A stretch of DNA of 32,062 nucleotides, taken from NCBI GenBank assembly GCA_018242105.1, contig JAFECP010000011.1:8395-40456 (forward strand), written 5' to 3'. Made by a program: the position numbers and the translations under genes. Below, one piece after another: positions 1,917-9,455 of the stretch. This DNA is from Pseudomonadota bacterium. Lineage in GTDB: Bacteria > Pseudomonadota > Alphaproteobacteria > Micropepsales > Micropepsaceae. Each line of letters starts with the position of its first letter. The first letter of the stretch is position 1. The notes under the pieces were generated by a model. It saw only the letters and a list, made by a program, of their open reading frames with translations, was not told the origin of the DNA and searched no databases.

Positions 1917-3563
1917 TTATGCCACGCGGCCGGCGTGATCCAGCATGGCGTGGGCGATTTCGCGCTCGCCCATGACGACCTCGCTGGCCCCGAGCTTGAG
2001 CAGATGATCCACCTCGGCGTCGAAATGCGCGCGGGCCACGATCTCCAGTTCCGGATTGGCTTTGCGCGCCTGCTCCACGATCTGGCCCGCCTCGAAGGCT
2101 TCCGGAATGGCGACGAAGAGCAGCCGCGCCCCGGCGATGTTCGCCGCCTTGAGCACGTTGCTCATCGCGGCATTGCCTTCGATCACTTCGATGCCGTCGC
2201 GGCGGATGCCTTCGATCACATCGCGCGCATTCTCGATAACGGCAAACGCAACCTCCATGCGCTTCAGCCCTTCGCCGACGAGATGGCCGACGCGGCCATA
2301 ACCGACGACGATGGCGTGCCGGGTAAGTTGTGTCGGCGCGATTTCGGCAGGCTTCTCACGCGGCATTTCGGGCGTAGCAGGTTCGGGGCGGCTTTGGCGT
2401 TCGGCGGCGGCGACCAGGAGGGGATTGATGAGGATGGTGAGAATGGAGGCGCCGAGGATGAGATCGCGCACGCGATCGGGCAGCAAACCCTGCCCGATGC
2501 CGAGATCGGCGAGGATGAAGGAGAACTCGCCGATCTGCGCAAGGCCCGCGCCGATGAAAAGCGCCGTGGCGAGCGGATAGCCGAACCAGCGCGCGATGAG
2601 ATAGGCCGCGCCGCCGATGCCGAAGATGACCACGGCGATGGAGGCGGCCAAAGCGGCAGGTTCCTGCACAATCACCAGGGGATCGAAGATCATGCCGACG
2701 GAGACGAAGAACAGCACCGCGAAGGCATCGCGCAGCGGCAGCGTTTCTTCGGTGGCGCGTTGCGAAAGCGGCGAGCCGCTCATGATCATGCCGGCGAAGA
2801 ACGCGCCGAGCGCAATGGAGACGCCGAACAGTTCCGCCGCGCCGAAGGCGACACCCAACGCGACGGTCAACACCGCCAACCGAAACAATTCGCGCGATCC
2901 GGTATGCGCCGTGTAGTGCAGCACCCATGGGATCACGCGGCGGCCTACGATCATCATGAAGGCCACGAAGCCGCCGAGTTTGAGGGCCGTGAAGCCCAGG
3001 GCGCGCAGAAGCGAGGAGGCTTCGATATGACCGCCTTTCAGCGCGGTCGCGACCGGAGGCAGGAGAACCAGCGCCAGGACGGTGATGAAGTCCTGCATCA
3101 CCAGCCAGCCGACGGCGATGTGGCCCTGGCCGGAATCCATCAGGTGGCGTTCCTGCAGGGTGCGGGTCATCACCACGGTGGAGGCGATGGCGAGGGACAG
3201 GCCGAAGACAAGGCCGGTGCCGAGATTCCAGCCGATCAGCCAGGCCACCGCTTCGCCCAGCGCGGTGGCGGCCGCCACCTGCAACAGCGCGCCGGGAACG
3301 GCGATGCGGCGCACGGAAATCAGATCGCGCGGGGAGAAATGAAGCCCCACGCCGAACATCAGCAGGATCACGCCGATCTCGGCGAGCTGGAGGGTGAGGC
3401 CCTTGTTGGCGACGAAGCCGGGGGTGAAAGGACCGACGGCCACGCCCGCCAGCAGATATCCCACCAGCGGCGAGAGCTTCAGGCGGTTGGCCATTGTGCC
3501 GAAGAGGAAAGCGAGGCCCAGGCCGATCACCAGAACGGCGATCAGGGGCGAATGATCGGTCAT
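1917..3563 (-). CDS. ybaL: YbaL-type monovalent cation/proton antiporter (CPA2, Kef family) with RCK-N domain
   Basis: This is an inner-membrane CPA2 antiporter, predicted to exchange K+ or Na+ for H+. Residues from about 7 to 390 hold a dozen hydrophobic segments with the Kef/YbaL signatures SPLVGYLLAGVAVGPFTPGF, LLMFGVGLHFSPRDL and ALGAFFAGMIMS. A charged, Pro-rich linker follows. The cytosolic C-terminus is a Rossmann-type RCK-N domain with the nucleotide-binding glycine motif VVGYGRVGHLVGEGL. The chosen ATG gives 548 residues starting MTDHSPLIAVL, which aligns with the E. coli YbaL start. In-frame ATG at 3581 and TTG at 3629 are alternatives. It lies between yebC (91 bases upstream) and ruvC on the same strand, and appears to be an insertion into the otherwise familiar yebC-ruvCAB order. 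Confidence 0.9.
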   Translation of the reverse strand: MTDHSPLIAVLVIGLGLAFLFGTMANRLKLSPLVGYLLAGVAVGPFTPGFVANKGLTLQLAEIGVILLMFGVGLHFSPRDLISVRRIAVPGALLQVAAATALGEAVAWLIGWNLGTGLVFGLSLAIASTVVMTRTLQERHLMDSGQGHIAVGWLVMQDFITVLALVLLPPVATALKGGHIEASSLLRALGFTALKLGGFVAFMMIVGRRVIPWVLHYTAHTGSRELFRLAVLTVALGVAFGAAELFGVSIALGAFFAGMIMSGSPLSQRATEETLPLRDAFAVLFFVSVGMIFDPLVIVQEPAALAASIAVVIFGIGGAAYLIARWFGYPLATALFIGAGLAQIGEFSFILADLGIGQGLLPDRVRDLILGASILTILINPLLVAAAERQSRPEPATPEMPREKPAEIAPTQLTRHAIVVGYGRVGHLVGEGLKRMEVAFAVIENARDVIEGIRRDGIEVIEGNAAMSNVLKAANIAGARLLFVAIPEAFEAGQIVEQARKANPELEIVARAHFDAEVDHLLKLGASEVVMGEREIAHAMLDHAGRVA

Positions 3564-3654: not shown

Positions 3655-4401
3655 TTAGCCGCCCAGCTTCGCCATCAAGGCATCGGACAATTCGTAATTG
3701 CCATAGACGGTCTGCACGTCGTCATGCTCGTCGAGCACTTCGAGCAGCTTCATCAGCGTCTCGCCATTGTCGTCGCTGACGGGCGACATGGTCTTGGGGC
3801 GCCACTCGATCCTGGCGCCGGAAGGCTCGCCCAGCTTCTTCTCCAGCGCATCGCGAACGCTGCCGAAATCCTCCATCGAGCTGAGGAATTCGTGACCCTC
3901 TTCGCCGGAGACGACTTCGTTCGCACCCACTTCGATGCCGGTTTCCAGCATCGCATCTTCGGAGCCCTTGTCTTTCGGATAGGTGATGACGCCGACACGG
4001 TCGAACATGAAGGTGACGGAGTTGGGCTCGCCCAGCGCGCCGCCGAATTTCGAGAAGGTCGAGCGGATGTCGCTGCCGGTGCGGTTGCGGTTGTCGGTCT
4101 GGGTTTCCACGATCAGCGCGGCGCCGCCGGGGCCGTAGCCTTCGTAGCGCACTTCCTCGATGTTCTCGGCGCCCGCGCCCGTCGCCTTGTCGATGGCGCG
4201 CTGGATATTGTCCTTGGGCATGGATTGCTGCTTGGCGGCGATGATGGCCGCGCGCAGGCGGGGGTTGTGGTTGGGATCGGGCATGCCCTGCTTGGCGGAC
4301 ACCATGATTTCGCGGGCGAGCTTGGAGAAGAGCTTGGACTTCTCCTTATCCTGCCGCCCCTTGCGGTGCATGATGTTCTTGAACTGACTGTGGCCTGCCA
4401 T
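3655..4401 (-). CDS. yebC: YebC/PmpR family protein
   Basis: YebC-family proteins are cytosolic and abundant. They have been described as DNA-binding regulators and, more recently, as factors that assist ribosomes on difficult sequences. The 248-residue product begins [21 protein letters not shown], the family hallmark, and carries the conserved [21 protein letters not shown] stretch in three pieces around residues 86-106. Length is typical. It is the first gene of the minus-strand run toward ruvB. Its leader contains a 27-bp direct repeat (4409-4469) whose inner copy supplies a purine-rich GGGAGAG ribosome-binding candidate. Confidence 0.96.
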
Positions 4402-4408
4402 GTTTTTT

Positions 4409-4469
4409 GCCGCTCTCCCTCTCGGGAACGCTCCTAATTTTGGCCGCTCTCCCTCTCGGGAACGCTCCT
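4409..4469 (-). repeat. 27-bp tandem direct repeat in the yebC leader
   Basis: Two identical 27-base copies occupy 4409-4435 and 4443-4469, separated by 7 bases. Each contains CCCTCTCGGG and, read on the minus strand, a GGGAGAG purine run that could bind the ribosome. The inner copy ends 8 bases before the yebC start codon. The repeat looks like a local duplication of the translation-initiation region. Confidence 0.8.
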
Positions 4470-4553: not shown

Positions 4554-4583
4554 AAGGTCTCTAAAGGTCTCTAAAGGTCTCTA
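4554..4583. repeat. Three tandem copies of a 10-bp unit (AAGGTCTCTA)
   Basis: AAGGTCTCTA is repeated three times without mismatch, followed by a partial AAAG. A 10-bp period places the copies on the same helix face. It lies just past the T-tract of the candidate minus-strand RNA and upstream of yebC. Function unknown. Confidence 0.75.
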
Positions 4584-4850
4584 AAAGAAAGGCCCGCGCG
4601 GCGTCCCGGCGAGCCCAACGGTGTCCAGCTACGCAGCAGGCTCCAGGAGAGCGGCTTTCCACCGCGCAACCAATGAGCACCTTCGCTCCAACCTCCCCGG
4701 TTTTCATGCGGAGGCTCCATCTTCGGCCGGCCTCTGAGATGTCCGGCTTTCGATGGTCTCCACGCGGGGTCCGCACAAGGCTCGGCCCCTTACCTGTCTG
4801 TCCTTGCGGCGTCGCTACTGTTTCAAGGCTTTTCTCCCACGCATCACCCG
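4583..4850 (-). ncRNA. Candidate unassigned small RNA between yebC and the toxin-antitoxin genes
   Basis: No convincing protein gene lies in 4402-4980. On the minus strand there is a promoter-like pair, TTGCAT (4880-4885) and TATATG (4857-4862), with 17-base spacing. About 240 bases further on is a terminator-like element: a 7-bp stem (4609-4615 with 4591-4597, one G-U), an 11-base loop and TTTCTTTT (4590-4583). Between them are several short hairpins, for example GCCGG/CCGGC and GCTC/GAGC. A long open frame on this strand (to 5163) crosses the TA operators and has no recognisable domain, so it is not called. I do not match this to 6S, tmRNA, RNase P or SRP RNA. Promoter matches are weak (3/6 and 4/6). 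Confidence 0.33.
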
Positions 4851-4931: not shown

Positions 4932-4969
4932 GGTTACATGTAACCGCCATGCTAGGGTTACATGTAACC
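4932..4969 (+). promoter_or_regulatory. Twin 14-bp palindromic operators of the toxin-antitoxin operon
   Basis: The perfect palindrome GGTTACATGTAACC occurs twice, at 4932-4945 and 4956-4969, with centres 24 bp apart. The second copy ends 11 bases before the antitoxin ATG and abuts its AGGAG ribosome-binding site (4970-4974). Paired palindromes directly upstream of a TA operon are the expected binding sites of the antitoxin or antitoxin-toxin complex for autoregulation. A weak promoter (TTGGTT at 4930, TAGGGT at 4953, 17-bp spacer) would overlap both copies. Confidence 0.75.
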
Positions 4970-4980
4970 AGGAGATCGCC

Positions 4981-5205
4981 ATGGCCGCCCGCTCGACATC
5001 GGCTTCCGCCAAGAAGGTCCGCGCCCACCGCGCCAAACTGCGCGCGCAAGGCCTGCGCCCCATCCAGATCTGGGTGCCGGACGTGAACGACCCGAAGTTC
5101 ATTGCCGAAGCGCATCGGCAGTCGCGACTCGTGGCGCAAAGCCCGCATGAAAAAGAAGAGCAAGACTTCATAGATTCCATTTCGGATTTATCCGGCTGGT
5201 CGTGA
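4981..5205 (+). CDS. Type II antitoxin, MazE-like (DUF3018 family)
   Basis: This is a 74-residue small basic-then-acidic protein. The middle (RVR/AHRAKLRAQGLRPIQIWVPDV, about residues 13-36) is the hallmark of the MazE-family/DUF3018 antitoxins: a DNA-binding N-terminal half followed by a toxin-neutralising tail rich in Glu/Asp (HEKEEQDFIDSISDLS). The ATG at 4981 has an AGGAG six bases upstream. An in-frame start upstream at 4930 would run through the operators and is rejected. Its last bases overlap the toxin start as GTGA. It probably represses its own operon through the two palindromes just upstream. Confidence 0.85.
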   Translation: MAARSTSASAKKVRAHRAKLRAQGLRPIQIWVPDVNDPKFIAEAHRQSRLVAQSPHEKEEQDFIDSISDLSGWS

Positions 5206-5543
5206 AACGCGGCGAAATATGGACGGTTTCCGATAGCGGCGGCTATGCGGGAAAGCCCAGACCTGCGGTGATCGTGCAGGATAACGCGTTCCCGGAAACA
5301 GCGTCCGTCACAATCTGCCCAATCACAAGCGACTTGGTGGAAATACCGATATTCCGCTTGCCGCTCACGCCGAGCGAAGCAAATGGATTGCGGATACTCT
5401 CGCATCTCATGGTCGATAAGATTACGACCACGCAGAAATCCAAGCTTGGCCACCGCGTCGGAGAGTTGAGCAATGAGGATATCGCTCTACTCAATCGCAC
5501 CATGATGATCTTTCTCGGGCTGGCATCCACCAGAAGTTCATAA
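5202..5543 (+). CDS. Type II toxin, MazF/PemK-like endoribonuclease
   Basis: MazF/PemK toxins are sequence-specific mRNA endonucleases that arrest translation when the antitoxin is degraded. The 113-residue protein shows the family start MKRGEIWTV, then GKPRPAVIVQ, a central VTICPITSD and HLMVDKITT, which together outline the CcdB/PemK SH3-like barrel. The GTG start at 5202 overlaps the antitoxin stop codon by four bases (GTGA), so translation is coupled. The next gene, a restriction-methylation enzyme, begins 32 bases downstream with no terminator seen, so the three may form one transcript. Confidence 0.88.
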   Translation: MKRGEIWTVSDSGGYAGKPRPAVIVQDNAFPETASVTICPITSDLVEIPIFRLPLTPSEANGLRILSHLMVDKITTTQKSKLGHRVGELSNEDIALLNRTMMIFLGLASTRSS

Positions 5544-5575: not shown

Positions 5576-7444
5576 TTGCTCAGCACCAACGAGGTCCGCG
5601 CGCGGGCGGCGGAATTTGCGCGCGAATGGAAGGACGCGCATTACGAATCCGGCGAGAAGCAGAGTTTCTACGACGACTTCTTCAAAGTCTTCGGCATGAA
5701 GCGCCGCCAGGTGGCGACGTTCGAGGAGCCGGTGAAGAAACTCTCCGGCAAGCATGGCTTCATCGACCTGTTGTGGAAGGGCAACCTTCTGGTCGAGCAC
5801 AAGAGCGCAGGCAGGGATCTGGCACGCGCAAAAGAACAGGCGCTCGACTACTTCCCCAATCTCAAGCCGGAAGAATTGCCGCGCTACGTCCTAGTGAGCG
5901 ATTTCCAGAATTTTGAGCTTTACGATCTGGACGAGCGCAAGGAATTGAAATTCAAGCTCGCCGATCTGCCCCGCCACGTCGAAGCGTTCAACTTCATCCT
6001 CGGCAGGAAGACGGTCGTCTTCAGTGATCAGGACCCGGTCAACATCAAGGCATCGGAGCTTGTCGGCGCGCTGCACGATGCGCTGGAAAAATCGAACTAC
6101 AAGGGCCACGATCTTGAGCGGTTTCTTGTCCGCATCGTCTTCTGCCTGTTCGCGGACGACACCGGCATTTTCCAGCCCAGCGACATTCTGCTGAACTTCC
6201 TGGAAAATCGTACAAGGGAAGACGGTTCCGACACCGGCGCGCTTCTCAACCAGCTTTTCGAAGTGCTGAACACCGACAGGCCGGATCGCCAGAGCAATCT
6301 GGACGAAGAGCTGGACCAATTCGACTATGTAAACGGCGGGTTGTTCGAAGAGCGGCTGCTCGCCCCGGCGTTCGACAGCAAGATGCGGCAGCAGCTTCTG
6401 GAAGCCTGCCGCTTCAAATGGGATGCGATTTCACCGGCCATCTTCGGTGCGCTGTTCCAGTCCGTGATGGAGCCAACGGAACGGCGGCGCAAAGGCGCGC
6501 ACTACACGACCGAACTGAACATCCTGAAGCTGATCCGCCCGCTTTTCCTGGATTCGCTGCGCGCGGAGTTCGATGACATCCGGCAACGCAAAGGTGCTGA
6601 CCGGCGCAACAAGCTCAATGCGTTCCACGACAAACTTGGACGGCTGACATTCTTCGATCCTGCCTGCGGCTGCGGCAACTTCCTCATCATCACTTATCGC
6701 GAGCTGCGGCGACTCGAAATCGAGGTGCTGAAAGAGATTTATCCGCCCAATAAACAGGAACTTCGCCAGCAGGAACTGGATGTGACGGCGCTTTCCAAGA
6801 TCGACGTGAATCAGTTTTACGGAATCGAGATCGAGGAATTTTCCGCTCTGATCGCGGAGACGGCGATGTGGATGATGGACCACATCATGAACAACGAATT
6901 GTCGCTTGCCTTCGGCAAGAACTATGCGCGCATTCCGCTAAAGAAATCCGCGACCATCGTGCATGGCGATGCGCTGGAGATCGACTGGGCGACGGTATTG
7001 CCGCCGGAGCAATGCTCTTATGTGTTCGGCAATCCGCCGTTCAGCGGCGCGAAAACGCAGGATGACAAGCAGCGCGCACAAGTGCGCGCCATCGCCAATC
7101 TCGGCGGCAGCGGCGGCACGCTGGATTATGTCGCGGCGTGGTTTTTGAAAGCCGGTGCCTATGTAAACGGACAGGCTTTGAGCCGTGAAATCGGTCGGTC
7201 GGTCGGTCGGTCGGTCGGTGCAAGGTTCAGGCCAATCCTGCGCTGCATCCATCGCGTTCGTCGCGACAAATTCCATCACGCAGGGCGAACAGGTCGCGCA
7301 GCTTTGGCCACTTCTCTTTTCGCACTACGGACTGGAGATCAGCTTCGCGCACCGCACCTTCGCATGGGGATCGGACGCGAAAGGCAAAGCGCATGTGCAT
7401 GTCGTCATCATCGGCCTGACCAAGCGCGCCTTCGAGCCGCTTGA
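5576..7444 (+). CDS. MmeI-like restriction-methylation enzyme, N-terminal part (frame broken at TCGG tract; OFF state)
   Basis: This is the first part of a single-chain type IIG/IIL enzyme that both cuts and methylates DNA. The start is TTG at 5576 with a GGGGAA run about five bases upstream. Residues 1-150 form the nuclease domain: Asp64, then Glu74-His-Lys76, the D-X9-EXK arrangement of MmeI. A helical connector follows. The N6-adenine methyltransferase core has motif I DPACGCGNF (361-369) and motif IV NPPF (486-489). At residues 539-549 the reading frame enters seven TCGG units. After them this frame departs from homology, adds about 70 unrelated residues and stops at 7444 (622 codons). 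The missing methyltransferase end, target-recognition domain and C-terminus continue in another frame from 7185. Removing one unit (7 to 6), or adding two, joins both parts into a 952-residue protein (six units), a normal family length. Confidence 0.92.
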   Translation: MLSTNEVRARAAEFAREWKDAHYESGEKQSFYDDFFKVFGMKRRQVATFEEPVKKLSGKHGFIDLLWKGNLLVEHKSAGRDLARAKEQALDYFPNLKPEELPRYVLVSDFQNFELYDLDERKELKFKLADLPRHVEAFNFILGRKTVVFSDQDPVNIKASELVGALHDALEKSNYKGHDLERFLVRIVFCLFADDTGIFQPSDILLNFLENRTREDGSDTGALLNQLFEVLNTDRPDRQSNLDEELDQFDYVNGGLFEERLLAPAFDSKMRQQLLEACRFKWDAISPAIFGALFQSVMEPTERRRKGAHYTTELNILKLIRPLFLDSLRAEFDDIRQRKGADRRNKLNAFHDKLGRLTFFDPACGCGNFLIITYRELRRLEIEVLKEIYPPNKQELRQQELDVTALSKIDVNQFYGIEIEEFSALIAETAMWMMDHIMNNELSLAFGKNYARIPLKKSATIVHGDALEIDWATVLPPEQCSYVFGNPPFSGAKTQDDKQRAQVRAIANLGGSGGTLDYVAAWFLKAGAYVNGQALSREIGRSVGRSVGARFRPILRCIHRVRRDKFHHAGRTGRAALATSLFALRTGDQLRAPHLRMGIGRERQSACACRHHRPDQARLRAA

Positions 7445-8489: not shown

Positions 8490-9365
8490 TCATGTATCGC
8501 CCAGGAATTTCTCGACAGTCTCCATCCACACATCGAACCGGTCGTGATGCGACCAGTGGCCGGCGCCTTCGATGTTCACGAGGCGCGCATTCCTGAGGTG
8601 CGCGATGCGCCCATCCGCCACCGGGTCGGAGGCCCAGCTTTCGGTGCCGCGGATCAGAAGCGTGGGCGCGGCGATGCGCTCCCAGATCTGGCGCTGTTCT
8701 TCCGGCGGCAATCCCGCCGGGCCGCCGCCCATGCGCACGGCCGGATCGAACTTCCACGAATAGGTGCCGTCCTCGTTTTGAATCGCGCCGTGAACGGTCA
8801 GATGCCGCGCCTGTGCGGCGGTGAGATGCTTGTTCTCTTCGGTCATGCGCGCGATGGCGTCTTCGAGCGTTGCGTAGCGGCGCGGGCTGCGGCCCGCATA
8901 TTCGCGCTTCTCCTCGATCCATTTGCGCATGCGTTCGGCGAGCGGCGTTTCGCGCATGCGCTTCAGCATGTTGGGTGACGGGCCCAGCCCTTCGATGGCG
9001 GCGACTTTCTTCACCGTTTCGGGAAACAGGCCCGCATAGAGCAGCGCGATGGAACCGCCCAGCGAATGGGCAATGATGGTGACCGGCGCCATGCGCTTTT
9101 GCAGCACAAGCTGCGCGATGTCGTACACATAGTTGATCTCGTTATAGCCGCCGCCGGCGGCGTGATCGCTGTCGCCATGGCCGCGCAGATCGGGCGCGAC
9201 GATGTGGTAGCGGCCGCGCAGCTTCTCCGCGACCCAATCCCAGTTGCGGCAATGATCGCGGCCGCCATGGATGAGCAGGAGCGGCGGCGCGCCTTCATTG
9301 CCCCAATCGACATAATGAAGTCTGAGCGCCTGCGAGAAATAGAACTGGGAGGTAGGACCCTGCAT
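8490..9365 (-). CDS. Alpha/beta hydrolase
   Basis: This is a cytosolic alpha/beta-fold hydrolase of 291 residues; the substrate is unknown. The oxyanion region LLLIHGGRDHCRNWD, strand-loop APDLRGHGDSD, nucleophile elbow AHSLGG (Ser nucleophile, Ala replacing the first Gly of the usual GXSXG) and C-terminal GAGHWSHHDRFD (catalytic His) are all present. The acid is probably the Asp of SWASDPVAD. The ATG at 9365 is chosen because MQGPTSQFYFSQALRLHYVDWGNE, given here in outline, is the usual family start. A TTG at 9395 would add ten residues. It is convergent with the restriction gene and has no obvious operon partner. Confidence 0.88.
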   Translation of the reverse strand: MQGPTSQFYFSQALRLHYVDWGNEGAPPLLLIHGGRDHCRNWDWVAEKLRGRYHIVAPDLRGHGDSDHAAGGGYNEINYVYDIAQLVLQKRMAPVTIIAHSLGGSIALLYAGLFPETVKKVAAIEGLGPSPNMLKRMRETPLAERMRKWIEEKREYAGRSPRRYATLEDAIARMTEENKHLTAAQARHLTVHGAIQNEDGTYSWKFDPAVRMGGGPAGLPPEEQRQIWERIAAPTLLIRGTESWASDPVADGRIAHLRNARLVNIEGAGHWSHHDRFDVWMETVEKFLGDT

Positions 9366-9455
9366 GAAACCCGGCCAATGTTGGATTGGCTCCAAACATC
9401 GGCCGGTTGCGCGGCAAGCTCAAGCCCTTGCGGCGCAACCGGCGGCCACTGGCCG

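Follow-up and report, generated by a model that had tools for sequence, protein, structure and literature searches.

A perfect TCGG tract divides an MmeI-like restriction-modification gene of an environmental alphaproteobacterium: a putative phase-variable switch in its OFF arrangement

Most known cases of repeat-driven switching of restriction-modification (R-M) genes come from host-adapted pathogens that carry many such tracts. The type III systems of Haemophilus and Neisseria are encoded by separate mod and res genes. Tetranucleotide repeats mediate phase variation of these Mod genes (De Bolle 2000, as cited in PMC6321876). Switching by repeats has also been proven for type IIG enzymes (PMC4889913, PMC3936762). 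Cj0031c of Campylobacter jejuni is a phase-variable type IIG enzyme with a poly-G tract, and many Cj0031 homologs in Campylobacter are without the tract (PMC4889913). The JHP1272/HP1353-HP1354 enzymes of Helicobacter pylori are type IIG and have been suggested to be type IIL and to resemble MmeI and TaqII (PMC3936762). In MmeI, Trp570 is reported to be absolutely conserved and to belong to the adenine pocket (PMC4833311). Phasome surveys apply a cut-off of five or more units to tetranucleotide tracts, and their cut-offs take in tracts that may mutate below 1e-5 (PMC6321876). In the hsdM gene of H. influenzae, as few as four pentanucleotide units switched at a high rate (PMC2651432).

Here, we describe an MmeI-like gene in which a TCGG tract separates two reading frames. 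The gene lies in a 32,062-nucleotide stretch of DNA (the window) from the draft genome (78 contigs, 3.2 Mb) of an environmental alphaproteobacterium.

The split gene and its repeat tract

Profile searches place the tract inside one MmeI-family (type IIG/IIL) gene whose halves occupy two frames (Table 1). The profiles PF20464, PF20465, PF20473, PF20466, and PF20467 all score far above cut-off and are spread over both. The frame of 5576 contains MmeI_N, MmeI_hel, and positions 5-190 (the first three quarters) of the MmeI_Mtase profile, and the frame of 7185 contains MmeI_Mtase 190-252, MmeI_TRD, and MmeI_C. PADLOC classifies both halves as REase_MTase_IIG. In an alignment with MmeI (PDB 5hr4), the first half covers residues 3-529 and the second 533-911, so that together they span almost the whole enzyme.

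The N-terminal part encodes a PD-(D/E)XK nuclease (D..EHK), a helical spacer, motif I (FDPACGCGNFL), and motif IV (NPPF). True homology stops at about 7165, and the remainder of this frame is an out-of-frame tail. GGGGA precedes the TTG start, whose context is identical in a relative (L005). The C-terminal part holds the last methyltransferase strand with FVATNSITQGEQ, the conserved Trp, the target recognition domain, and the C-terminal helical domain. In the alignment to 5hr4, the Trp of FAHRTFAW corresponds to MmeI Trp570 and is located 3' of the tract with the recognition domain. The first available start codon of this frame is the GTG at 7185, within the repeat-bearing insert. An earlier sequence-only reading of this DNA had put the nuclease, spacer, and motifs I and IV before the tract and the recognition domain after it. 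This division holds, with the nuance that C-terminal homology proper begins at about 7245-7250 and not at 7185.

Enzymes of the MmeI family methylate adenine on one strand and cleave at a distance from a specific site. Across the two frames, the domain order of the family is preserved (nuclease, helical spacer, gamma-class methyltransferase, recognition domain, C-terminal domain). The catalytic motifs D...ExK, FDPACGCGxFL, and NPPF and the adenine-pocket His and Trp are all present, as judged from both translations and the 5hr4 alignments. With seven units, the domains are not on one continuous polypeptide, and the gene as sequenced is a disrupted copy of an MmeI-family gene, not an intact member.

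Table 1. Coordinates of the features discussed. Positions refer to the window, except in the rows for homologs (L numbers), where they refer to the homologous locus.
Feature	Position	Strand	Basis or remark
yebC	3655-4401	-	upstream border of three-gene block
Two perfect palindromes GGTTACATGTAACC	4932-4945, 4956-4969 (within 4932..4969)	.	5' of antitoxin gene
MazE-like antitoxin gene	4981..5205	+	overlaps toxin start
PemK/MazF-like toxin gene	5202..5543	+	ends 32 bp before MmeI-like gene
MmeI-like gene, N-terminal part, 622 aa as sequenced, TTG start	5576..7444	+	profiles, 5hr4 alignment
Extra segment relative to homologs, ~55 bp, includes tract	7171..7225 (approximate)	+	linker comparison
MmeI-like gene, C-terminal part, different frame, 417 aa	7185..8438	+	profiles, 5hr4 alignment
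(TCGG)7 + T repeat tract, sets reading frame	7191..7219	+	repeat count, genome search, frame arithmetic
Hydrolase gene	8490-9395	-	downstream border of three-gene block
L015, in-frame repetitive insert	5893-6051		methyltransferase loop
L017, in-frame repetitive insert	5863-6000		methyltransferase loop
L046, in-frame repetitive insert	5815-6000		methyltransferase loop
L053, in-frame repetitive insert	3268-3417		methyltransferase loop
L066, in-frame repetitive insert	5336-5488		methyltransferase loop
L070, in-frame repetitive insert	5890-6033		methyltransferase loop

The tract is 100% perfect, with a unit count known from one draft assembly. Single proteins of 948, 952, 956, and 960 aa result from 3, 6, 9, and 12 units, respectively, while seven units yield 622 aa without the recognition domain and eight yield 615 aa. 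The seven-unit product is without the last methyltransferase core strand, the adenine-pocket Trp, and the whole recognition domain. These recomputed products agree with the earlier arithmetic, in which six or nine units fuse the parts (952 aa with six) and seven or eight do not. The profiles and the 5hr4 alignment likewise bear out that seven perfect units split one gene, and the 622-aa product matches the OFF arrangement that had been read from the sequence. The tract also has the features sought in SSR phase variation: the unit is not a multiple of three, it lies within coding sequence, the seven units exceed the survey cut-off, and the count decides whether the protein is full-length or truncated.

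Among TCGG runs of at least four units, this tract is the only one in its own 3.2-Mb genome, where no further copies of the tract or its flanks were found. The genome-wide repeat background was estimated from 384 kb of stretches. Apart from the tract, this sample contains no tetranucleotide run of at least four units, and it has no homopolymer of at least nine. A period-4 run of the tract's length is expected about 1e-8 times per 3.2 Mb under the assumption of independent bases, whereas real repeats arise by slippage. Base composition alone does not predict a run this long.

The MmeI-like gene forms a three-gene block with the toxin-antitoxin pair upstream. The GGTTACATGTAACC palindromes are likely the autoregulatory operator of the antitoxin gene, and a transcription unit shared by the pair and the MmeI-like gene is possible from the gene arrangement. 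The toxin is a neighbour and not part of the switch. Among the homologs whose neighbourhoods were compared, the toxin was found beside none of the others. Between yebC and the antitoxin gene lie a 34-bp near-perfect duplication (4404-4469) and three perfect copies of AAGGTCTCTA (4554-4585).

The methyltransferase loop and the tract in relatives

The tract is the main part of the extra segment, which occupies a variable loop; the helix that ends in KAGAYV precedes this loop and the strand IAFVATN follows it. The linker at this site is 12-33 bp long and in one frame in most of the homologs examined, flanked by the helix (AWFLKAGAYV in the window gene) and the core strand (IAFVATNSITQGEQ). Six homologs (L015, L017, L046, L053, L066, L070) carry in-frame inserts of 138-186 bp at the same linker. 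In a structure model of L017 (mean pLDDT 80.6), the insert (residues 529-563) is a disordered loop with pLDDT below 50 that sits between helix 509-525 and strand 570-577. The model and the six inserts indicate that the loop tolerates added residues, so that six or nine units could plausibly give an ON protein.

Several of the six inserts are clear inverted repeats, recalling palindromic elements inserted in coding genes. The extra segment of the window gene is single-copy in the genome and has no strong palindrome, unlike the inserts of other homologs, and a transposition footprint was rejected on these grounds.

The window gene is the only one of 115 homologous loci with an above-threshold repeat inside the gene. 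None of the 68 other genomes of the genus contains five TCGG units in a row. Among 385 genomes of the class, one other such run was found (G178), but it abuts an N assembly gap and so carries no information on tract sharing. The order-level and family-level genome sets were identical (96 genomes). In 2.9 million viral contigs, 74 stretches with five TCGG units were detected, none with an MmeI homolog. Since no relative has the tract, it looks like a lineage-specific acquisition and not a conserved switch.

Within the genus, the nearest homolog (L005/L086; Hyphomicrobiales bacterium HJP_bin43) is also without the tract, and its flanks differ from those in the window. Its reading frame is interrupted by a TGA (AW*LKAG) some ten codons before the position that corresponds to the tract. 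This codon (at about 2212-2214 in L005 and identical in L086) falls in the otherwise invariant AWF motif and is two base changes from Phe. The TGA reflects either a pseudogene or a sequencing error, and it may hint that the MmeI-like gene is simply dispensable in the genus. Five of the 115 homologs (L023, L033, L062, L064, L084; ~4%) are frameshifted with no repeat tract, which means that disrupted copies are not exceptional. No syntenic empty site was found in the five genus genomes with the downstream hydrolase, in which only the hydrolase aligns, and a tblastx version of this comparison gave noise only. A separate repeat array, (GACCCCT) x19, starts at 7367 in the locus of an Acidobacteriaceae MmeI homolog (L054), ~190 bp past its matched end.

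Explanations for the frameshift

The OFF arrangement, with two intact halves, is shown by the assembly. The account that we favour, with reasonable though far from full confidence given one draft assembly, is that of a phase-variable single-gene R-M enzyme caught OFF. With seven units, the ribosome translates the nuclease, the spacer, and motifs I and IV, exits the frame in the tract, and stops after 622 residues. The resulting protein would be unable to recognise, methylate, or cut DNA. Slipped-strand events that add or remove TCGG units would bring the halves back into one frame at six or nine (952 or 956 aa), so that six or nine would be ON and seven or eight OFF. The tract codes for a short Gly-Arg-Ser-Val run in the insert-tolerant loop, and the ON protein should fold. 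Because one recognition domain would serve both activities, restriction and methylation would go off together and the cell would not be poisoned. A population would then be a mixture of ON cells, which restrict phage and bear the methyl mark, and OFF cells, which admit incoming DNA. A single TCGG tract in a repeat-poor genome, located inside an R-M gene, is a point for switching. Against it, the tract is absent from homologs and from 68 other genus genomes and so is not conserved, and seven units make a short tract. If the proposed switch is real, it would suggest that bet-hedging of phage defence can also evolve where a lineage has no set of contingency loci.

As the main rival account, the gene may have been broken not long ago, when a single slippage event struck a neutral loop that tolerates expansion; switching would then not be selected and the gene would be on its way out. 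This is unlikely in our estimate, but it deserves serious weight: the tract is common to no relative, a nonsense codon lies close to the tract position in the nearest homolog of the genus, repeat-free frameshifts occur in other homologs, and the loop takes unrelated inserts. The state of the downstream half speaks for the other side. In pairwise comparisons with seven homologs, the ratio of nonsynonymous to synonymous differences is 0.20-0.46 for the N half and 0.31-0.39 for the C half, and the 396 codons 3' of the tract contain no stops in frame, compared with 7 and 10 in the other frames. The two halves thus appear equally constrained, and the downstream decay (dN/dS near 1) that the sequence-only reading had named as part of the evidence against itself is not seen. 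Because synonymous sites are near saturation, these values rule out a long decay but not a recent break, which would look alike. Moreover, the break lies exactly at the genome's one such tract, and slippage is therefore expected to revert it, selected or not.

An assembly or consensus error is improbable. The real cell would then carry six (or nine) units, with a gene that is intact and does not switch; a mixed count, the other possibility, would itself be phase variation. The draft state of the genome and the assembly gap beside the sole other TCGG x5 run in the class lend this idea some weight; however, ordinary short reads span a 29-bp tract, and this one is embedded in a contig of more than 80 kb with no gap near. 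We give very little credence to two proteins that form a working split enzyme, or to ribosomal frameshifting in the tract. Both frames are open and the GTG at 7185 could start the second, but it has no clear ribosome-binding site, and the break interrupts a loop of the methyltransferase immediately ahead of a core strand. In the other homologs, this region is part of a fused protein. The tract also offers no A/T-rich slippery heptamer for frameshifting.

Beyond the preferred account of a switch caught OFF, a broader evolutionary scenario may be put forward tentatively, with more doubt than conviction. The MmeI-family loop that joins the last methyltransferase helix to the FVATNS strand may be an evolutionary landing pad for in-frame repetitive DNA, as in at least six homologs, whose inserts are often palindromic. 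Here, in an environmental alphaproteobacterium and just downstream of a MazEF pair, a tetranucleotide would have made it an on/off switch for restriction and methylation.

Comparison with known phase-variable systems

The sequence-only reading had called a type IIG/IIL example from this class unusual. Its claim needs narrowing, because phase-variable type IIG enzymes are known (PMC4889913, PMC3936762): repeat-switched single-chain R-M enzymes are already described in Campylobacter and Helicobacter, with homopolymers. The apparent novelty lies in the lineage, in the tetranucleotide unit, and in the placement of the tract within the methyltransferase loop. In the open-access literature, judged mostly by titles and abstracts, no type IIG/IIL gene with a tetranucleotide tract came to light.

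MmeI (PDB 5hr4, type IIL) has the same five domains in the same order as the window gene over nearly the full length, and its motif I, NPPF, the His of GAHYT, and the Trp of FAHRTF-W recur there. Unlike MmeI, the window gene is interrupted: a repeat tract within the methyltransferase loop shifts the frame and divides the gene in two. The Mod genes of Haemophilus and Neisseria share with it a tetranucleotide unit within the coding sequence of a DNA methyltransferase. However, those systems divide their functions between mod and res, whereas the window gene encodes one type IIG/IIL chain.

The JHP1272/HP1353-HP1354 enzymes are switched by slippage in the coding sequence, as we infer for the window gene. 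Their tracts are homopolymers, one of which alters specificity near the C-terminus, while the window gene has a tetranucleotide before the recognition domain that would act on/off only. Cj0031c likewise is a single-chain R-M enzyme in which a tract in the coding sequence splits two frames, and its methylation and restriction switch together (PMC4889913). It differs in its poly-G tract, in variation that has actually been observed, and in its host-adapted campylobacterium, and its membership in the MmeI subfamily is not established.
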